DNA of 47,092 nucleotides from Candidatus Thalassarchaeaceae archaeon (GTDB lineage: Archaea > Thermoplasmatota > Poseidoniia > Poseidoniales > Thalassarchaeaceae). This document shows, piece by piece, positions 28,570 to 37,995 of the stretch; within the stretch, counting starts at the first letter, position 1; every line of letters starts with the position of its first letter. Both the position numbers and the translations under genes were made by a program. A model generated the notes under the pieces. It made no database searches, was not told the origin of the DNA, and saw only the letters and a program-made list of their open reading frames with translations. The stretch is taken from the NCBI GenBank assembly GCA_029940695.1, contig JAPYUP010000010.1, positions 2,148-49,239 of the forward strand. Direction: 5' to 3'.

Positions 28570-29832
28570 GTGGAGGAAGTGTCTCAGTTCGACGAATCTG
28601 ATTCTCGGGGCATCCTCCAGTCCTATACTAATCCCTCCACCTTGCCTCACTTTCTACTGCTAATGGCAAATACTGGAGTCCTCTATGTAATCATGAAAGC
28701 AGATTGGTGGGGGTTTGCCGAAAGAGGGAGCGTGATATTTCTCTCCCTCACCATCTCGTACTGCTTCGCAGCAATTTTGTCCCCCAGTCGGATCGGGAAC
28801 CTGATATTTCGCGTCGACGATGGTGGCAGGGGCGTGCTCAATGCCTCCTATTGGTCGAGCAGTCTGCTGGCACTCTTGCCCATAGGGATAACAGTGGCTC
28901 TGGTCGCTGCAACTATCTTGACCCAACTGAAGTCAGATAACCTGACTACAATCGCCTACCTGATGGCTTCCCTGTTCGTACTCATGTCCATTGGTCAAGC
29001 ACTCTCACTGACTTTCGGGGGCATAGCCTATGCTAGGAGAATATCTAAGTTTGCCCGGTCCGGTAGATTGGGAATTCATTTCACAATCACAAGGGCCGCT
29101 TTGGCGGTGGTGGCATTCATTCCTCTTGTCTGGTGGTTCGGATACGGCGCCGGTGACATCTCTGGGCAGAGTCTGACAGGACATGCCGTGTGGTTGGGGT
29201 TTCTAGGAGTGGTCGCGCTTGTGAGCGTGGTTGCGGAGAGACACACAAGCAGAGCTAGGTCCAGAGAGGGGATAGATGGAGTGGCTGCCGACAGGCTGAT
29301 GGTGGTGATGGTGCTAACCATGTGCTGGCACCTGCTCAGCGCATGGAGAAGGAATCCTCTGTTCGTGGATTCGGCAACTGGCTCGATGCTAGTCGAGGAG
29401 GGAATCCTAATGGCCGTTGCAATATTGCTCGCTGTTTGGTCGATGTCTAACCGAGGCCACAAAAATGGATGGAGGGTCTTCCAAGGTCAATCGGCGGTTT
29501 TCTGGGGCATCGGATTCGGCTATGCCTATGGGGGAAGTATCGCCTCCCTGACCGCTCTTTCCGAGGGAAGTCTCCTCACGACAACTGCTGGGGGGCACCT
29601 CCTAACGGCCATAGTGATGCTGGCAATTCTACCGTTAGCAATATCGAGAGTCGGAAAGCCCGTGAGCGAGGAGCCGGAAACTGTAGTCGGTGTATTGGAA
29701 AACAGAGAAAGCCCCGGAGCATCATTCACTCAAGCGCCATCGGCGTACACCGGCGCGTATGAGCAGAGAGGTGTCGGAGATGAAAGACCGTTGGAAACGG
29801 CTCAGGAAGATGTCGTCGAGCTCATCGACTAG
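28570..29832 (+). CDS. Multipass membrane protein of unknown function
   Basis: A 420-residue protein with about nine or ten transmembrane helices between residues 27 and 360 (for example FLLLMANTGVLYVIM, LLALLPIGITVALVAATIL, WLGFLGVVALVSVVAE, AVAILLAVW), followed by a disordered acidic tail of 60 residues (EEPETVVGV..., ending VVELID). No transporter signature is recognised; the short loops and the many Gly/Ser faces suggest a channel or scaffold. Its stop and that of the convergent FtsZ-like gene share the palindrome CTAG at 29829-29832. GTG start. Confidence 0.65.
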   Translation: MEEVSQFDESDSRGILQSYTNPSTLPHFLLLMANTGVLYVIMKADWWGFAERGSVIFLSLTISYCFAAILSPSRIGNLIFRVDDGGRGVLNASYWSSSLLALLPIGITVALVAATILTQLKSDNLTTIAYLMASLFVLMSIGQALSLTFGGIAYARRISKFARSGRLGIHFTITRAALAVVAFIPLVWWFGYGAGDISGQSLTGHAVWLGFLGVVALVSVVAERHTSRARSREGIDGVAADRLMVVMVLTMCWHLLSAWRRNPLFVDSATGSMLVEEGILMAVAILLAVWSMSNRGHKNGWRVFQGQSAVFWGIGFGYAYGGSIASLTALSEGSLLTTTAGGHLLTAIVMLAILPLAISRVGKPVSEEPETVVGVLENRESPGASFTQAPSAYTGAYEQRGVGDERPLETAQEDVVELID

Positions 29833-30734
29833 AGGCCACTTACGACAGCAACCAGCCTCAGTTTCCCTACCATGCCATCGCTCGCCCGTGCGCCAAGAAT
29901 TACTTGGCAATCCTCATCTAGAGATGAGACGAAGGCCTCGGTGACCAAATTGAGATGAGAGAGCGTCATATCAGGGCCGCCTTCGACCTGTATGAGGCAG
30001 CCCTTGGCACCTTCAACATCAATTTCCGAAAGCGGGGAGTTCTTCGCCATGCCAACCACCCCAATGGGGTCATCAGTAGAACCGGTTCCAACAATCAGAG
30101 TGGCATTTCCGGGTCGATCGATAACAGTCCTGAGATCCATGAGATCGAGATTCATCTTACCGACTTTAGCAAGAGTCGTCACTAGGCCCTCGATGAGCTC
30201 GCCAATCCATTCCGAACCCAACTTCCAGTCAGAGTCCCTGTGCCTAGCCTGCCAAGCCAGCCTCTCGAGACTGACTCGGATGCAGAGGTGCGAGTTGCGT
30301 TCGATTGCTGGGAGGGCCCTCTCCGCTATGGCGCACCTCAAGGGCTGCTCAGCGAACGGCAGACCTACGATGCTCAGAACGAGACTACCGGCCTCCCTAG
30401 CTCTGGCTGCGAGTTCAGCAGCGGCCCCGGACCCGGTACCGCCGCCGAGTGCGGTAAGGAAGACCACCAGTTCCGATCTAGTAAGGAGTGGCGAAATGTT
30501 TCCCAAACCTTCCATGAGCCTGTGTGCGGCCAAGTTCGGAAGTGCTGCCGTACCCCTGGCGTCTCCCATCGCATCAAGATGGAGGCAATGGGCTTCTTGG
30601 GAAGACGAGAAGGAGGACTCGTCGGCGTCAATGAGAAGCAGTTCTGCCAACTCCGAACACCTAGCATGGGCTCGCTCGGACCATCCGCACCCAATACCCC
30701 CCACACCAACGATGAGAATCGCGCCTTGCTCCAT
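29829..30734 (-). CDS. Short divergent FtsZ/tubulin-family GTPase
   Basis: A 301-residue FtsZ relative. GGGTGSGAA at 97-105 is the tubulin signature (T4) loop, LIVGVGGIG at 7-15 the first nucleotide loop, and NLDLMD at 195-200 gives the T7 loop N-x-D-x-x-D that completes the GTPase site of the next subunit. The AD-x-K-I-x-L-G block after the first strand, usual in FtsZ, is not recognisable, and the protein ends with the C-terminal domain, without the disordered tail and conserved peptide that bind FtsA/SepF. So it should polymerise or at least bind GTP, but partner binding must differ. It is upstream of nothing obvious; a TPR gene 35 bases upstream on the same strand may be co-transcribed. 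Confidence 0.78.
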   Translation of the reverse strand: MEQGAILIVGVGGIGCGWSERAHARCSELAELLLIDADESSFSSSQEAHCLHLDAMGDARGTAALPNLAAHRLMEGLGNISPLLTRSELVVFLTALGGGTGSGAAAELAARAREAGSLVLSIVGLPFAEQPLRCAIAERALPAIERNSHLCIRVSLERLAWQARHRDSDWKLGSEWIGELIEGLVTTLAKVGKMNLDLMDLRTVIDRPGNATLIVGTGSTDDPIGVVGMAKNSPLSEIDVEGAKGCLIQVEGGPDMTLSHLNLVTEAFVSSLDEDCQVILGARASDGMVGKLRLVAVVSGL

Positions 30735-30769
30735 GGTGAGCGGTTAGTAACAGACTAGATGATGTTGTT

Positions 30770-31075
30770 CTAGTCATATGTTTGGTAGCGCCTGTATCTA
30801 CGCCTCTCGTCGCGTGCCCATGCATTATCGGGCTCTAATGACAGGACTTGGTCATAATACGCAACAGCACGCTCAAAGTCAGATAGGTGCCTACCATGCA
30901 GATGGCCGAGGTTGTTCAGCGCTGGAATGCAATCCGGGTCCTCATCGAGGAGAGCCAATAACATACGTTCAGCCTCATTAATCTCCATCATTTCCATGTG
31001 ATTCTCTGCCTGATCGAGCCTGTGAATTTGAGCCTCGGTGAGGTCGTACACGTTCTTCCAAACCGGCCCCGCCAT
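30770..31075 (-). CDS. Small TPR protein
   Basis: A 101-residue protein with two or three tetratricopeptide repeats. The clearest run is from residue 35 to 95: EAERMLLALLDEDPDCIPAL, then NNLGHLHGRHLSDFERAVAYY and LSLEPDNAWARDE, with the small-residue and Pro positions of TPR helices. It is likely a binding adaptor. It precedes the FtsZ-like gene by 35 bases on the same strand, so it may bind that protein or a membrane partner (inference). ATG at 31075. Confidence 0.75.
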   Translation of the reverse strand: MAGPVWKNVYDLTEAQIHRLDQAENHMEMMEINEAERMLLALLDEDPDCIPALNNLGHLHGRHLSDFERAVAYYDQVLSLEPDNAWARDERRRYRRYQTYD

Positions 31076-31213: not shown

Positions 31214-32029
31214 ATGAATCGATTCGTGATATCCTATCAGAAGGCCGTCATTCTGTGTATTGTAACCGTTTTCGTCACTGGTTCCGGCCAAGGTCTGCAC
31301 ACTGGCATCGGTGGGGATGCCAACAGCCAAGGAGACGTAACCATGGCCGGGTGCACCTGCCACGCCGAACAGCCCGACAACTCCGTCACAGTAGTACTAG
31401 ACGGCATTCCCTATCATTATGGATTGGGACAGGAATACGAGTTGAGAGTGCAGTTAATCGGGGGGCCAGCAATCGACACAACCTCACAAACTGGTGGTTT
31501 TTCCATGAAGGTCAGCTCAGGAACTCTGGGGCCCGGTACGGGCTATGATGGGCTCGTTCAGAATTGGGAGGATGATTCCACATCCTTGACTCACACTGAC
31601 TCTGGATCCAAGACCGCCGATAGGACTTGGGTAGTCTCTTGGACCAGTCCGGAAGAAGTTGGTGGTGCCGTCACTTTCTGGCTGGCTGGTAACGCCGTCA
31701 ATGGCGATTCAATCCCGTCTGAGCTTGACAGATGGAACAGGCTGACTACCACAGTGGATGAAGGTTCCGACAACGGTAGGACTAGGACGGTGTTCTCGGG
31801 CAACGGGGACATTGATCCCCCGGCACCAATCGATGACCACGTAGACATTCACCTAATGGGGGCCGAGCTCTTGGCTCACTGGCTAGGTCTGCTCGGGTTC
31901 ATCTCCGTGTTCCTCGTGATTATCTTCTGCGGATTCTTCCTCAGGTATGGATTCTCGCGCCACTACGAGGGCAGAAGCAACCTCTTGAAGCTGAGGATCA
32001 AGCACCTTCGAAGGGGTGATCAATTGTGA
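31214..32029 (+). CDS. Reeler/choice-of-anchor-V-like membrane protein with CxCH motif
   Basis: A 271-residue secreted membrane protein opening the respiratory operon. A hydrophobic signal covers residues 7-24, and a C-terminal helix of about 25 residues is followed by a basic inside end (RIKHLRR). The outer part has the pattern of choice-of-anchor V/Reeler-like domains: G-C-T-C-H near the start, then a strand with GQEYELRVQL, GGFSMKVSSG, and WVVSWTSPEEVGGAVTFWLAGNAVN. Members of this family often carry a Cys-x-x-Cys-His heme-like motif; here only one residue separates the cysteines (Cys47, Cys49, His50). With a Rieske/cytochrome b operon behind it, a redox or heme/metal role is possible. ATG at 31214 has GAGGTG upstream. 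Confidence 0.7.
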   Translation: MNRFVISYQKAVILCIVTVFVTGSGQGLHTGIGGDANSQGDVTMAGCTCHAEQPDNSVTVVLDGIPYHYGLGQEYELRVQLIGGPAIDTTSQTGGFSMKVSSGTLGPGTGYDGLVQNWEDDSTSLTHTDSGSKTADRTWVVSWTSPEEVGGAVTFWLAGNAVNGDSIPSELDRWNRLTTTVDEGSDNGRTRTVFSGNGDIDPPAPIDDHVDIHLMGAELLAHWLGLLGFISVFLVIIFCGFFLRYGFSRHYEGRSNLLKLRIKHLRRGDQL

Positions 32030-32475
32030 AAGACGATGTAGTGATGCGCCTCCTCAAGGAGGTCAAGTCTGGTCAGGTCAGTATCGATGATGCTAGAAAG
32101 ATACTCGTGGATGTAACTATCTCTGAGGATTCGTATGTTGCTGCCGTAGACCATGGTGTGTTTAATGACCCGGAGCCCGGAACCATTGTGCGGGCGAGCA
32201 TCTCGCCCTCTGGAGACTCCTGGTTAATCATCATCGTCGGTCTATGGGGCTTGCTCTGGACTCTATACTGGGCCGGTGCCCTTTCTTATGGCCTATTCAA
32301 CAACTGGGATCAGCAGATTCTCTCATTCAACTGCGGGATGACCTTACTCACGGTGATTATTTTGGGGATAGTCCACCTGAAGTACGTGCTTCCCGATGTT
32401 GTAATGGTCAAATACAGGCGGAACAAGTACATCACAAAGAACGACCCAGATGCATGGAAAGAATACGAGGTGTAA
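32026..32475 (+). CDS. Small two-helix membrane subunit of the respiratory operon
   Basis: A 149-residue protein. The first 65 residues are soluble (KEVKSGQVSIDDARKIL resembles a short helical oligomerisation segment); two transmembrane helices follow at about 66-88 (SWLIIIVGLWGLLWTLYWAGAL) and 100-121. The C-terminus is charged. The GTG overlaps the previous stop (GTGA) and the Rieske gene starts two bases after its own stop, so it is probably a subunit or assembly factor of the complex. No family recognised. Confidence 0.65.
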   Translation: MKDDVVMRLLKEVKSGQVSIDDARKILVDVTISEDSYVAAVDHGVFNDPEPGTIVRASISPSGDSWLIIIVGLWGLLWTLYWAGALSYGLFNNWDQQILSFNCGMTLLTVIILGIVHLKYVLPDVVMVKYRRNKYITKNDPDAWKEYEV

Positions 32476-32477
32476 TA

Positions 32478-33326
32478 GTGTCGAGAAGATTCAAACTACG
32501 TCCTCTTTCCAGTGCGAATGATGACCTCCGTGAGGTCTCCCGTGGAATCGATCGCAGAGAGTTCATGCGATTGTCGTTCAATACGGCTGCTGGGCTCATC
32601 ACCATGGCGAGTCTGGGTAGTGTGGGATTCGCTTCATTCCTGATGGGGCAATCGAGTTCTGGTGATTCTGACTCTGCCATCACCTTCTATGCCCCCAAGG
32701 GTTCGGACGTGTGGTACAGCAGCATGGATGGGCAGCCAATGACGCACCAGTCCTTCGTTACAGAAGCAGCGAATTCCGAAACCGGAATGTCGGCGGCAGC
32801 CGGACTCTGGTCGGGACTCCCCGTGATAGCAACCTACGTTCCCCACCAAGAGAACTCGAGCAAGCCACTTGTCGAGAATGAGCCTAGGTTCCAGTTCCAG
32901 GATGGCTACACATCAAGCGGTGCCTATGTCGGGTCCGGTTACGAGATTAACGAGAAGGAGGAGTACGCACCACTGTCGGTTCACGACAACATGATCATCA
33001 TCTTCTCCAGATGCCCTCACCTCTGCTGCATACCCGGGTGGCAACTGGTCAACAACGATTTCACTACTGACAACTGGTACCCTGGCGGGACCGACTCGGG
33101 CGGTAACAAGTTGTTCTGCATCTGCCACTCCAGCCGCTATGACCCGACAGTGATAGAAAAGAATCGGAACCGAAACAGGTCGAGTGGTGCTGAGTTCGAC
33201 TACATTGGAATCAAACGCACCGGCGGCCCCGCTCCGGTCGGGATGCCGCTGATTCCATTCGTTGTTAATGGGGACTTAATAGAGGCCTTGCCCGACTTCA
33301 AGGATTGGTACACGTTCTGCGCCTGA
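32478..33326 (+). CDS. Rieske iron-sulfur protein with Tat signal
   Basis: A 282-residue Rieske protein. RREFMRL at residues 26-32 followed by a hydrophobic helix (35-57) is a twin-arginine signal anchor, as expected for a folded [2Fe-2S] protein. Cluster box one is CPHLCC at 179-184, with Cys179 and His181 as ligands and Cys184 for the disulfide; Cys183 stands where Gly is usual. Box two is CICH at 214-217 with Cys214 and His217 as ligands and Cys216 for the disulfide. About 30 residues separate the boxes, longer than in mitochondrial proteins. The frame continues upstream to 32244, but GTG at 32478 is chosen because it follows the previous stop by two bases and starts the Tat region. Confidence 0.9.
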   Translation: MSRRFKLRPLSSANDDLREVSRGIDRREFMRLSFNTAAGLITMASLGSVGFASFLMGQSSSGDSDSAITFYAPKGSDVWYSSMDGQPMTHQSFVTEAANSETGMSAAAGLWSGLPVIATYVPHQENSSKPLVENEPRFQFQDGYTSSGAYVGSGYEINEKEEYAPLSVHDNMIIIFSRCPHLCCIPGWQLVNNDFTTDNWYPGGTDSGGNKLFCICHSSRYDPTVIEKNRNRNRSSGAEFDYIGIKRTGGPAPVGMPLIPFVVNGDLIEALPDFKDWYTFCA

Positions 33327-33332
33327 GGTGAG

Positions 33333-34208
33333 ATGATGATTCAGTTCTGGTTCCTCTGGATATTCATCGCCATAGTCATCGTCATCGTGGCTTTCACGCT
33401 CCGACAGGAGCGAGACGACATTCCACGGAAGGACATCTTGAGGGCAGTGGAAACCAGTTCAGGTGGCATGGGCCTCGCGGAGAAGAGTTTTCTCTGGGCA
33501 TTCTCCTGGCTCGATACCCGCTTCAGGATTCAGGACTACTGGGGCATGAGCAGGGATGCCTACCACAGCATGCACAGACAGATGCCTCTCACTCACGCCG
33601 AGAAGTACAAGCTACGTATCATCTGGTACTGGTACCCCCTATACTGCCTCGGTGGCATATCGTTCCTCGCTTTTATCATCCTCGTTATCTCAGGCACCAT
33701 CCTCGGCTTCTACTATGTTCCCGGGGGAGACCTGAGTTCAGACCCCACGCCAGCCTACGCCTCGATGGAATTCATCATGGTGGAGCTGCCCTTTGGCTAC
33801 ATAATGCGCTCCATACACCACTGGGGCACTCACTTCATGGTGGCCTCCGTGTTCCTCCACATGTGCAGAGTGTACTTCACCGGAGCGTACCGAAACCCCA
33901 GAGAGCTAAACTGGCTGATTGGAGTGTCTCTCATGTTCTTCACAATCTTCTTCGGTTACTCCGGTTACCTCCTTCCTTGGGATAGTCTTGCATTCGGAGC
34001 GGCGACCATAGGCATCAATATGGCCAATTCCACTCCACTGATTGGTGATTGGATGTCGGCCCTCCTGTTCGGAGACACCGTACTGAGTGGGCAGACCGTC
34101 GTCCGGATGTATTTTCTGCACGTGTTCGTGCTTCCCGTCATCGTGACTGCACTAATACTAGCGCATCTGTTTATCGTGTGGGTACAAGGCATAGCGGAGC
34201 CGCATTGA
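33333..34208 (+). CDS. Cytochrome b (b6-type N-terminal subunit)
   Basis: A 291-residue heme b protein. An extra N-terminal helix (residues 4-22) precedes the four-helix heme core. The four ligand histidines are visible: His162 with His176 (RSIHHWGTHFM, FLHMCR) and His263 with His278 (YFLHVFV, LAHLF). Thirteen and fourteen residues separate the pairs, the second value being that of cytochrome b6. GYSGYLLPWD is the Q-site segment. The C-terminal quinol-site half (PDWY) is in the next gene, as in split b6/subunit-IV arrangements. GAGGTGA precedes the ATG. With the Rieske protein it forms the quinol-oxidising core, moving electrons outward and across the membrane. Confidence 0.93.
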   Translation: MMIQFWFLWIFIAIVIVIVAFTLRQERDDIPRKDILRAVETSSGGMGLAEKSFLWAFSWLDTRFRIQDYWGMSRDAYHSMHRQMPLTHAEKYKLRIIWYWYPLYCLGGISFLAFIILVISGTILGFYYVPGGDLSSDPTPAYASMEFIMVELPFGYIMRSIHHWGTHFMVASVFLHMCRVYFTGAYRNPRELNWLIGVSLMFFTIFFGYSGYLLPWDSLAFGAATIGINMANSTPLIGDWMSALLFGDTVLSGQTVVRMYFLHVFVLPVIVTALILAHLFIVWVQGIAEPH

Positions 34209-34217
34209 GGTGAGAGC

Positions 34218-37046
34218 ATGGGGATGATGGAGAGATTCGGTAGGATCGCTGACACTTACATCAGCGAGAAGGAGCAGTTAATCGAGGCAGAAGAGGAGCG
34301 CAGGAGGGTCTTCGTCGGACACATGTTCTGGCCTACGGAGGCACTGAGGGACTCCATCATTTTCGCTGCCGTCCTGATGGTCATCGCGTTCTACTCGTGG
34401 ATAATCCCCCCACCCCTCCACAACGCTGCCGATCCGTTCGCACAAGCCGGTTTCGTGTTCCCTGACTGGTACGTTCTTTTCTCCTACGGGTACCTCAGAT
34501 GGGGCGAGTACCTCCCTCAATTCACTATCCCAGCTGGTCCAATAGGTGACTTCTTCGGTTCTCCGGTAATCTCCTGGAATGCCGCTTGGTGGGGATCGGT
34601 CATCACCGGCGTTCCCGTTGGCCTGCTAGCTCTTCCCCCGTTCCTCATCGGCAGGAGAGAGAAAAGGGGGGTGGAGGATCCGTGGTTCGCCTCTGCAGGT
34701 GCTGTCTACCTCGCTCACGTCTGGTTCATCTCGGTGTTCTCCATCAATATCTTCCTCGAACTTTATGCGAAGGACAGGAGGGACCACTGCTGGGCTGGAT
34801 CCCATGGCAACTTCATGTGCGGTACACAACCGCCTTGGACTGCCGAGGTGTTCAACGCCGTTCCTTGGGTGCTCACCGGAATCTTCCTGTTCGCTCTAGT
34901 CTACTTCTGGAGCAGACGCTTCTTGCTAGGCCCATTGGGTGCTAGGCTGACTCCTTTCCTTGGCAAGCAAGTCGCTGTGGGCTCGCTCATAGCAACTGTT
35001 CTGATCTGCGCCGTCACTTGGCCAGTCTACGAAAACGGGTTCTGGGACCAGAGGGGGCTTGGAACGATGGGTTTCTGGGAGTACCAAGCCGACGATAAGA
35101 TGGAAGAACTTGATGGTATCAGGGGCCAGCCTGCTGACACGTTGGTCCTCTTCGAGCACGGAAACGTGTGGGTTGAGTGGGAGGACGAGTGCCTGACTTA
35201 CGAAAGCACGGGTGAACTACCAGCATGGGAAGGTATCCAAGAGGAGTCAGAATACGCAGATTGGTGCGTGATTCCAGCAGTACATTGGCTTGATTGGGGG
35301 GTCTACCAACCAACTAAAGCCACAATAATCGATTTCAGTGACGTCAACGGGCATTCCGTTGCGCAGACGTCTAGGAACTACGGCGGTGGGAAATTCAATT
35401 ACACAGGGCTGGATGATGGCGGCCCAATCGAGATCACCGAGTCGCGAACTTTCAGCGTCGAGAACCTCGGAGTCGGTAGTGTTCCCGTTGATGTCGGATG
35501 CAACTTCAGAACCACGGCGAGGGGAGCGGGTACCCATGCCCAGAGTGTTTCCCTCACTGATTCTTCGGGACAACTCCTCTGGGAGAACGAGGGGGATACG
35601 TGCGACTCAACTACGATGTACCTAACTTCCGGCCAAGCCTACACGATAGTGTTCGTGGCCTCCTCATTGGGAGTCGACGAGACAGTGACCATGATTACGG
35701 ATTTCTCTGCTGTCGCTTACCAACCGCTGCTCCTCAAAGAGGATGGGACCGCACTGGTGCGTGCCGATAGCACTCACGATGCCGATGCTTTGGCAGCGAT
35801 GTCCATTTCAAATCCAACCTTCCACAAGAACCCGAAGAGCCTAGATGCCAAACTGGTCTACTCGCTGTTCATTCCCTGCCTCGGTGTTGGGGCGATGGTG
35901 TTCATGCTCATGCGTAGCATGGCTAGGGGATACGAGTGGGAGATGAACAAGTGTTACGGCTGCGACCTGTGTGACGACGCCTGCCCCATTCGCCTGTTCA
36001 ACGCTGGAGACAAGCTCAACATCATCTACAACACGTGGAACAACGAGGACGATGGAGTTCCACTATACTCCTGCCTAACCTGCACGGCTTGCACCAACGC
36101 ATGCCCACAATTAGTAGACTACGACTCTTACATCGACATCAGGCGCAACCTGATTGTAGGTGGGCCCCCTGCGACTGAGATTCCCCACACCGTGCTTCAG
36201 GCTGTGTTGGCAGCCGAGGCGGAGGAGGATGCCGACGAGGCTTTCATCTCGGTTGAGGACTACCCAATCGACTCCAGTGTTGGCTACTACCCTGGGTGTG
36301 TGGACTACATCGATCAGGAGATGATCTTCAGCCACGTCAATGAAGGCACTATGGATCTCGGTGATACAACAACCGCGGCCTTCACCCTGTTCGAGGAGAT
36401 GGGTCAGGAAGTCACCTATCTAGGAAGGGACTTCCTCAAGTGCTGTGGACACGACCAGAAGTGGCAGGGCATGAGCGAGGTCTTCGAGAAATTGAAGGCC
36501 TACAACCAGAAGAAACTGGGACAGAGCGGAATCGATACCCTAGTAACCTCGTGCGCGGAGTGCTTCCGCACCTTCGCCATGGACTATGAGCTAGGAGATA
36601 TGAAGGTCATGCATACCACTGAGTTCCTGCTTGAGAACGGTTTTGACATGCAATTGCAGGCCAAAGACGAACTCACAGTGACATTTCATGACCCATGTCG
36701 CCTGGGCCGACAGATGAACATCTACGACGAGCCCAGAAGCCTTGTCAGTTCGGTGGAGGGAGTCAACCTCGTCGAGATGGAGCACCACGGTGAGGATGGG
36801 CTGTGTTGTGGCGTCTCTAGCATGATGGCATGCAACGAAAACAGCAGGGCCCTCAGACTACAGCGTTTCGACGAGGTCATGGCAACTGGAGCGGAGATAA
36901 TGCTAACGTCCTGCCCCAAATGCGTCAGTCATTTCGAGTGCCTGAAGTTTGAGGGTGATCCCAGGCACGACTTCGAAATCCTCGACGTAGTGAGCTTCCT
37001 CGCCCGGCAAGTCGATGCAACAAAAAGTGACTACGAGAATGCATAG
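34218..37046 (+). CDS. Cytochrome b C-terminal part fused to an HdrD-like iron-sulfur module
   Basis: A 942-residue fusion. Residues 45-270 hold five transmembrane helices; the quinol-site motif PDWY is at 82-85, as in cytochrome b subunit IV. Residues 275-555 are an outside beta-rich domain with Asp/Trp-rich segments. A sixth helix (about 555-575) returns the chain to the cytoplasm. Then come two [4Fe-4S] sites (CYGCDLCDDACP near 580, CLTCTACTNACP near 620) and two CCG cysteine-rich domains: PGC/CCG/CAEC at about 696, 741, 779 and DPC/CCG/CPKC at about 826, 862, 899. This is the plan of HdrD, DsrK and GlpC. The result is a bc-type complex with its own cytoplasmic dehydrogenase or heterodisulfide-type reductase. 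GAGGTGAGAGC precedes the ATG. Confidence 0.88.
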   Translation: MGMMERFGRIADTYISEKEQLIEAEEERRRVFVGHMFWPTEALRDSIIFAAVLMVIAFYSWIIPPPLHNAADPFAQAGFVFPDWYVLFSYGYLRWGEYLPQFTIPAGPIGDFFGSPVISWNAAWWGSVITGVPVGLLALPPFLIGRREKRGVEDPWFASAGAVYLAHVWFISVFSINIFLELYAKDRRDHCWAGSHGNFMCGTQPPWTAEVFNAVPWVLTGIFLFALVYFWSRRFLLGPLGARLTPFLGKQVAVGSLIATVLICAVTWPVYENGFWDQRGLGTMGFWEYQADDKMEELDGIRGQPADTLVLFEHGNVWVEWEDECLTYESTGELPAWEGIQEESEYADWCVIPAVHWLDWGVYQPTKATIIDFSDVNGHSVAQTSRNYGGGKFNYTGLDDGGPIEITESRTFSVENLGVGSVPVDVGCNFRTTARGAGTHAQSVSLTDSSGQLLWENEGDTCDSTTMYLTSGQAYTIVFVASSLGVDETVTMITDFSAVAYQPLLLKEDGTALVRADSTHDADALAAMSISNPTFHKNPKSLDAKLVYSLFIPCLGVGAMVFMLMRSMARGYEWEMNKCYGCDLCDDACPIRLFNAGDKLNIIYNTWNNEDDGVPLYSCLTCTACTNACPQLVDYDSYIDIRRNLIVGGPPATEIPHTVLQAVLAAEAEEDADEAFISVEDYPIDSSVGYYPGCVDYIDQEMIFSHVNEGTMDLGDTTTAAFTLFEEMGQEVTYLGRDFLKCCGHDQKWQGMSEVFEKLKAYNQKKLGQSGIDTLVTSCAECFRTFAMDYELGDMKVMHTTEFLLENGFDMQLQAKDELTVTFHDPCRLGRQMNIYDEPRSLVSSVEGVNLVEMEHHGEDGLCCGVSSMMACNENSRALRLQRFDEVMATGAEIMLTSCPKCVSHFECLKFEGDPRHDFEILDVVSFLARQVDATKSDYENA

Positions 37047-37294
37047 TACGCTGACACACCGGCGAGCATCGCGTTTAGGATGATTCCCCCTACACTTGCT
37101 CTCGCGAACCTCTGATTCTCGTAGCCAAGCGCCACCAGCAGAAGGAAGAATCCAATCAATCCACCGCAAGCGATTGAAATCCACGCTACGGTGAGGCCCA
37201 GAAGCATTGCCATGACTGACCAAATCGCCGCCCCTTGCAGTAGTCCTAGCCAGACCATGGGGTCCACCCACCACGGACCTTCGAATTCCTCCAC
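37031..37294 (-). CDS. Small membrane protein
   Basis: An 87-residue protein with three likely transmembrane helices (residues about 12-30, 31-57, 67-86), rich in Gly, Ala and Leu. Its last 16 bases overlap the convergent end of the cytochrome b-HdrD gene. The ATG is 79 bases from the divergent ferredoxin start. No family recognised. Confidence 0.55.
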   Translation of the reverse strand: MEEFEGPWWVDPMVWLGLLQGAAIWSVMAMLLGLTVAWISIACGGLIGFFLLLVALGYENQRFARASVGGIILNAMLAGVSAYYAFS

Positions 37295-37373: not shown

Positions 37374-37706
37374 ATGACAGGAATTCCTGACATGTTGGCT
37401 AGGAGGGCCATCGAGCAAGCGAGGATTCGGATGCTGCTAAATTCGTTGCGGGCAGAGGAGATGGCCAGCATCAAGGGGGGTCCCGAAGCCGTTGCTTGGG
37501 TAAAAGAAGGGCTCTGCATTGGTTGTGACCAGTGCACGATCGTCTGTGATGACGATGCAATCGAATTGTACGACACCCCGCTTGCCAGCCCAATCATGGA
37601 TGTCGACGTCAACAGGAAGGCAAGGATTCTCCGGGATCCATGCACCGGTTGCAAGCTCTGTGTTTTAGCTTGCCCTACAGATGCAATTGTAATGATTGAC
37701 AGGTGA
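37374..37706 (+). CDS. 2[4Fe-4S] ferredoxin
   Basis: A 110-residue ferredoxin with CIGCDQCTIVC at about 48-58 and CTGCKLCVLACP at about 89-100, each giving C-x2-C-x2-C-x3-C. The first 45 residues form a helical extension (RRAIEQARIRMLLNSLRAEE) not found in short bacterial ferredoxins, and about 30 residues separate the two sites. It might serve the HdrD-like module encoded just before, or be an accessory subunit of a larger complex. Confidence 0.85.
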   Translation: MTGIPDMLARRAIEQARIRMLLNSLRAEEMASIKGGPEAVAWVKEGLCIGCDQCTIVCDDDAIELYDTPLASPIMDVDVNRKARILRDPCTGCKLCVLACPTDAIVMIDR

Positions 37707-37710
37707 GGAA

Positions 37711-37995
37711 ATGGCGAAGGATGATCCTGTCAGGTTTGGTGCCGAATTCGGACCCAAGAGGACTGGGGGCTCCAGTGGGGTATCTTTGTCTACATTCAAG
37801 ACACTGGTCTGGGTCTCCAACCTCGGTGGGCTCTTGTTGTGTGTAATCGGTCTCGAACTGATGGTGGTCAAACAGTCCTTCGGATTCGGCCTGGCTTGCA
37901 TTGTTGCCGGCGTGGCAATTGCCCTATTCCCATCTAACTACGAAATCATCGGGATGGAAGAACTGGGTGGAGAAGACACCAACGAAGAGGGGTGA
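37711..37995 (+). CDS. Small two-helix membrane protein
   Basis: A 94-residue protein with a soluble Gly/Ser-rich start and two transmembrane helices (about residues 33-53 and 57-73). ATG at 37711 follows the ferredoxin stop by four bases and has GGTGAGG directly before it, so the TTG further upstream is not needed. The acidic end overlaps the frame of the alkyltransferase gene. Function unknown; likely co-transcribed with the ferredoxin. Confidence 0.6.
   Translation: MAKDDPVRFGAEFGPKRTGGSSGVSLSTFKTLVWVSNLGGLLLCVIGLELMVVKQSFGFGLACIVAGVAIALFPSNYEIIGMEELGGEDTNEEG

Follow-up and report, generated by a model that had tools for sequence, protein, structure and literature searches.

The stretch analysed here (the window) is 47,092 nucleotides of contig JAPYUP010000010.1 from a Candidatus Thalassarchaeaceae archaeon, and the system of interest is a respiratory complex III encoded from position 31214 onwards, in which the second of two cytochrome b genes continues into a cytoplasmic iron-sulfur module resembling heterodisulfide reductase (Hdr). 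The closest relatives of the window among named genomes are Thalassarchaeaceae/Marine Group IIb (MGIIb), of the order Ca. Poseidoniales (Marine Group II, MGII); the genome itself (G000) measures 1.42 Mb and is 94% complete. The survey was confined to the Thermoplasmatota, with a phylum sample of 293 genomes and a named-locus comparison of 80 loci. Per-gene locus counts (70-77) refer to MGIIb loci and were scored where the contig reaches the position of the gene. Five co-directional open reading frames (ORFs) occupy 31214-37046, all of them where the first-pass annotation had placed them, and encode a Reeler-like protein, a small membrane protein, a Rieske protein, cytochrome b6 and a fusion protein of 942 amino acids. 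The gene unit reaches beyond 37046 and includes a ferredoxin (37374-37706) and a protein with two transmembrane (TM) helices (37696-37995). In the MGIIb loci, every neighbouring gene recurs wherever the contig extends, except an antisense ORF at 37031-37294. The features are as follows.

34218..37046 (+): 942-aa fusion of subunit IV, beta domain, two [4Fe-4S] motifs and two CCG domains
34218..34772 (+): subunit IV (cytochrome b C-terminal) part, from homologues with PF00032, alignment and hydropathy
35031..35852 (+): extracytoplasmic beta-sandwich domain, residues ~272-545; AlphaFold2 (AF2) pLDDT 80-92 over most of 300-535
35952..36107 (+): two cubane [4Fe-4S] motifs, starting at C579 and C619 (PF13187/PF13183)
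36297..36563 (+): CCG domain 1, with C694, C742, C743, C779 and C782
36696..36923 (+): CCG domain 2, with C827, C863, C864, C899 and C902; best stretch of PF02754
33333..34208 (+): cytochrome b6-type subunit with an N-terminal extension (PF00033, E 7e-41; 77/77 loci)
33645..33647 (+): codon of b6 Cys105, aligning with b6f Cys35, the thioether Cys of heme c_n (c_i)
32454..33326 (+): Rieske [2Fe-2S] protein with a Tat-type N-terminus (TIGR01416, E 4e-9, under the model cut-off)
37374..37706 (+): RnfB-like 2[4Fe-4S] ferredoxin, proposed docking/donor subunit (PF14697; 74/74 loci)
31214..32029 (+): Reeler-like/choice-of-anchor V exported protein with a C-terminal TM helix (NF041895, E 2e-24)
32026..32475 (+): small membrane protein, accessory subunit (weak DUF7318 similarity, PF24002, E 0.0014)
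37696..37995 (+): small membrane protein with two TM helices, accessory (74/74 loci)

The fusion protein begins with subunit IV, which carries the PDWY motif, and proceeds through extra helices, the beta domain and a last helix to the two cubane motifs and the two CCG domains. PDWY, a form of the Qo motif P[DE]WY, occupies residues 82-85 (34461-34472) and is invariant in 36 sequences. PF02754 matches the protein in two CCG stretches (E 4e-22), and the 4Fe-4S dicluster region was also found. Motifs and profiles thus confirm the architecture read in the first-pass annotation, namely a cytochrome b split into a b6 part and a PDWY part that runs into two [4Fe-4S] sites and two complete CCG domains. 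Hydropathy and positive-inside charges indicate that the iron-sulfur part faces the cytoplasm, with the beta domain and the PDWY loop on the outer side. The outside beta domain, also anticipated in that annotation, is borne out by the AF2 model as well as by this topology. It is a fast-evolving insertion specific to Poseidoniales, absent from the other families with the module (f22, f25 and Marine Group III, MGIII), and a Foldseek search with the predicted domain returned GOLD/jelly-roll-like matches without redox meaning. Column conservation is highest in the iron-sulfur part (98% in the cubane region, 90-92% in the CCG domains) and lowest in the beta domain (62%). The AF2 model of the whole fusion has a mean pLDDT of 49.6 and is confident only in the beta domain.

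The partners of the fusion are those of a b6f-like core. The cytochrome b6 subunit has the four heme-ligand His residues, and its top PDB match is the cytochrome b6 of b6f (E 2.6e-41). Its Cys105 aligns with Cys35 of b6f, the ligand of heme c_n, and the equivalent residue is Cys in 79/79 matched MGIIb b6 sequences; a heme c_n is accordingly predicted for the complex. In families f22 and f25, b6 is fused at its N-terminus to Big_5 Ig-like domains (L118:10086-11975 (-) and L119:788-3613). Both ligand boxes of the Rieske protein are present (CPHLC, 187-191; CICH, 222-225), and the Rieske gene was found in 73/73 loci.

The fusion is fixed in the order Poseidoniales, where it occurs in essentially every genome. 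It was recovered at full length in nearly all of the 80 named loci, with 65-79% identity, and the module was found in 78 Poseidoniales genomes of the phylum sample, from both families. Its frame measures about 920-990 aa in these genomes, bar a handful that are mostly shortened. The b6 gene adjoins the fusion on the same strand in 73/76 cases; in the remaining 3/76 the two genes lie on different contigs. A frame or assembly error joining two genes is excluded by this recurrence of the full-length fusion beside b6.

The ferredoxin downstream of the fusion is present in 77/79 Poseidoniales genomes and lies at most 2.1 kb from the fusion in 69/73. Its best-scoring models are those of RnfB, although the TIGR01944 score of 44.1 bits does not reach the cut-off of 68.7. 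Orthologues occur in MGIII and f22; the f1, f3 and f22 ferredoxins can be aligned near both clusters as well as across the insert that separates these. This protein is probably the orphan RnfB of MGII recorded by Tully 2019 (PMC6336850).

Three further Thermoplasmatota families possess the module, in split or fused form: f3, f22 and f25. The first is the other family of the class and, judging from its placement, corresponds to MGIII. Its gene order is the same, with the CCG part in a separate gene and a subunit IV that ends with the two cubane motifs; the next gene encodes a flavodoxin-ferredoxin or a ferredoxin. One Hdr-type Cys of CCG domain 1 has been lost in MGIII (KCSG or CAEG), while the whole complex is retained. 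In f22, a fusion of 789 aa lacking the beta domain is followed by a polyferredoxin. In f25, a fusion of 606 aa is followed by an overlapping gene for an HdrA-like protein with a FlpD domain (L125:757-2292, L119:5435-6379). Across the four lineages, the neighbours of the module are thus a ferredoxin, a flavodoxin-ferredoxin fusion, a polyferredoxin and HdrA-FlpD, that is, one-electron carriers or HdrA. Elsewhere in the window genome, a 658-aa fusion of ferredoxin, flavodoxin and an SdhB-like part is followed by an SdhE-like CCG protein (L087:2212-5048, G000:C43); its flavodoxin shares 58% identity, over 176 residues, with the MGIII flavodoxin that is fused with the complex III ferredoxin (L121:7004-7993).

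The CCG module is a plug-in on a common complex III core, since families f4, f21, f23 and f31 keep Rieske, b6 and subunit IV, or at least b6 and subunit IV, and have no CCG gene at the locus. It has a single origin: all seven complex III CCG modules form one clade (100/100) among HdrD-like proteins, apart from EtfD, and several of the HdrD-like neighbours in the tree are MvhD-HdrD fusions. Because some rows have long branches, the exact nesting of this clade is unsure.

The Reeler-like gene, probably that of an accessory subunit, holds the same place in 70/70 MGIIb loci and is also present in MGIII and f4, and the small membrane protein recurs in 71/71; their retention, which extends to lineages without CCG, agrees with the view of the first-pass annotation that both are extra subunits. 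In f31 the Reeler-like protein (L133:11493-12380, -) contains CTSCH, a CxxCH motif that may bind heme c; the corresponding residues of the window protein are CTCH. A relative of the 2-TM protein lies directly 3' of subunit IV in f4, which has no CCG module, and at L131:11338-11859 this f4 protein is fused to a glutaredoxin-like domain. BLASTP found no similarity between the small protein of L118 and the 2-TM protein of the window, so that position and TM pattern are what suggest their equivalence. Upstream of the unit lie genes for a membrane protein, an FtsZ-like product and a TPR protein (28570-31075). The FtsZ-like gene recurs in 67/67 loci and the TPR gene in 68/68, and the Poseidoniaceae locus L122 contains the whole trio.

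The inventory of electron carriers bears on what the module might be connected to. POR_N, the mark of 2-oxoacid:ferredoxin oxidoreductases, was found in 21/21 Poseidoniales genomes, whereas NuoF and the FlpD family were each found in 0/21; the complex I core is present in 9/9 near-complete genomes. With 2-oxoacid oxidoreductases and a complex I core, and with neither NuoF nor FlpD, ferredoxin is the expected electron currency. No classical ETF-QO was found in the Poseidoniales genomes searched. The window genome also encodes, at L086:6459-8480 (G000:C11), a separate EtfD homologue of 673 aa (E 5e-108 to 9ojn), which carries the EtfD signature GCSG and CPHC where the fusion has KCCG and CAEC. 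Given the absence of classical ETF-QO, this homologue is likely the ETF:menaquinone oxidoreductase.

Taken together, these data point, on balance, to a b6f-like complex III in which an added cytoplasmic relay of the HdrBC type would serve as a second entry point for reduced ferredoxin. In this scheme, 2-oxoacid:ferredoxin oxidoreductases would reduce ferredoxin during amino-acid breakdown, and the electrons would pass to the RnfB-like subunit, then through the CCG clusters and the cubanes (two of each), an order that is itself putative. From the cubanes they would reach cytochrome b on its n-side, at the Qn site with heme b_n and the predicted heme c_n, where menaquinone would be reduced. An ordinary Q cycle would follow, in which the PDWY/Rieske site oxidises the quinol and the electrons move on to the oxidase. 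Gene neighbourhood is what suggests ferredoxin as the donor, and the inward direction of flow is likewise putative. The scheme is favoured by the partners of the module, since every lineage examined pairs it with low-potential carriers or HdrA. Also in its favour are the alignment of the ferredoxins, the single CCG clade apart from EtfD, the cores that lack the module, the inventory of electron carriers, the separate EtfD for ETF, the strong conservation of the iron-sulfur part, the Cys105 alignment and the earlier proposal for Angelarchaeales (Diamond et al. 2022, PMC9038741). The broader claim of the first-pass annotation, a bc-type complex with a cytoplasmic HdrD-like module and hence an unusual electron path, is supported.

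Several observations weigh against a ferredoxin inlet. In 33/69 adjacent cases, mostly in Poseidoniaceae, ferredoxin and fusion are encoded on opposite strands, and in the window the antisense ORF stands between the two genes. A complex I without NuoF could itself oxidise ferredoxin. Both CCG domains have the five Cys of heterodisulfide reductases, which is beyond the need of a plain relay. The AF2 model gives the CCG half a pLDDT of about 25-50, from which distances between clusters and hemes cannot be read off. Finally, a strict co-occurrence of the heme c_n Cys with the CCG module fails: the Cys105 position is Ser in two MGIII genomes that bear the module and Cys in f31, which lacks it, so that heme c_n is not sufficient, nor is it strictly required.

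The complete five-Cys sets, present as in HdrB and unlike EtfD (PMC13083937), and the position of the module clade among HdrD-like proteins would also suit a quinol:disulfide reductase similar to HdrDE or DsrMK, in which electrons would run from the b hemes over the cubanes to the CCG domains, where a disulfide, trisulfide or similar compound of the cytoplasm would be reduced. However, MGIII keeps its entire complex despite the Cys loss in CCG domain 1, which makes disulfide cleavage unlikely as the conserved function. In none of the lineages examined did the neighbourhood of the module show a recognisable gene for a thiol, sulfur or DsrC-like partner, FlpD is absent from Poseidoniales, and the partners are ferredoxins or a flavodoxin. 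Such a reductase is unlikely, and the proposal of the first-pass annotation that quinol oxidation feeds a cytoplasmic disulfide, sulfur or small-acid reaction is not supported, given partners that are one-electron carriers or HdrA and the MGIII loss.

Two other donors have been considered, each quite improbable and to the same degree. One is ETF (from acyl-CoA dehydrogenase) or another flavoprotein dehydrogenase, feeding the CCG module as in mycobacterial EtfD. The nearest solved relative of the CCG half is indeed EtfD (9ojn, E 1.5e-24), and a classical ETF-QO is missing in Poseidoniales. ETF is nevertheless disfavoured because the same genome has the separate EtfD, placed elsewhere in the tree, and no etf or flavoprotein dehydrogenase gene was seen beside the fusion. 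The other donor is a flavin partner of the HdrA type: the module would be the HdrBC half of a flavin-bifurcating enzyme with a distant HdrA, joining flavin and quinone bifurcation. This idea draws on f25, where the HdrA-FlpD gene overlaps that of the fusion (L119, L125). It is countered by the lack of the FlpD family in the Poseidoniales genomes and by the neighbourhoods of f1, f2, f3 and f22, in which no HdrA gene was seen next to the fusion, HdrA not having been searched genome-wide in Poseidoniales.

Least probable of all is an outward flow. Quinol bifurcation at the Rieske/PDWY site would then send one electron to oxygen, and the other would travel over the b hemes, heme c_n and the iron-sulfur chain and reduce a ferredoxin, flavodoxin or disulfide in the cytoplasm; the complex would be a bifurcating enzyme based on quinone and a source of reductant for an aerobic heterotroph.

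If ferredoxin electrons do enter the bc complex directly on its n-side, the locus would specify a genetically explicit ferredoxin:quinone reductase within complex III, and the predicted heme c_n would lie on the way to the quinone. An Hdr-type module has here been grafted onto an aerobic respiratory complex, and the locus may also explain the orphan RnfB of MGII. The uncultured marine MGII rank with the most abundant archaea of the plankton, and the complex III of their genomes is the fused form. The fusion and its universality in MGII appear to be undescribed: in the open-licence literature searched, no description was found of either, of the single origin or of the separation from EtfD.

Comparison with known systems shows which parts are shared. 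Like cytochrome b6f, the complex has a split b6/subunit IV, a Rieske protein and the Cys35 equivalent in b6; it differs by two additional TM helices, the beta domain, the iron-sulfur module and the ferredoxin, and no cytochrome f was seen in the gene cluster. With HdrDE and HdrBC the fusion shares the CCG pair with five Cys each and a dicluster ferredoxin part. However, HdrD pairs with HdrE, whereas the partner of the fusion is a Rieske/b6 complex; no curated Hdr equivalog exceeds its cut-off for the fusion (TIGR03290, 16 bits vs 160), and HdrA is absent from the neighbourhood of the fusion in the window. EtfD (9ojn, PMC13083937) is similarly a membrane protein with two [4Fe-4S] sites and two CCG domains that wires a cytoplasmic donor to menaquinone. 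It is, however, a five-helix single chain without a Rieske or b6 partner, and its CCG domain 1 lacks the supernumerary Cys; it has a CxHC motif and a linear [3Fe-4S] cluster (PMC13083937).

For MGII, Tully 2019 (PMC6336850) reported that most genomes have cytochrome b and Rieske but not a canonical bc1, and RnfB without the rest of Rnf; the CCG fusion is unmentioned there, and RnfB is not tied to complex III. The closest precedent is the locus of Ca. Angelarchaeales, also Thermoplasmatota, with a split cytochrome b complex III and adjoining HdrD-like and RnfB-like genes, from which Diamond et al. 2022 (PMC9038741) proposed an entry of ferredoxin electrons. The passages of that paper cited here mention the two genes in passing as proximal and do not extend to a subunit IV fusion, its distribution, an analysis of the clusters or MGII. 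In Poseidoniales, the proposed ferredoxin route is covalently attached to complex III and is testable.

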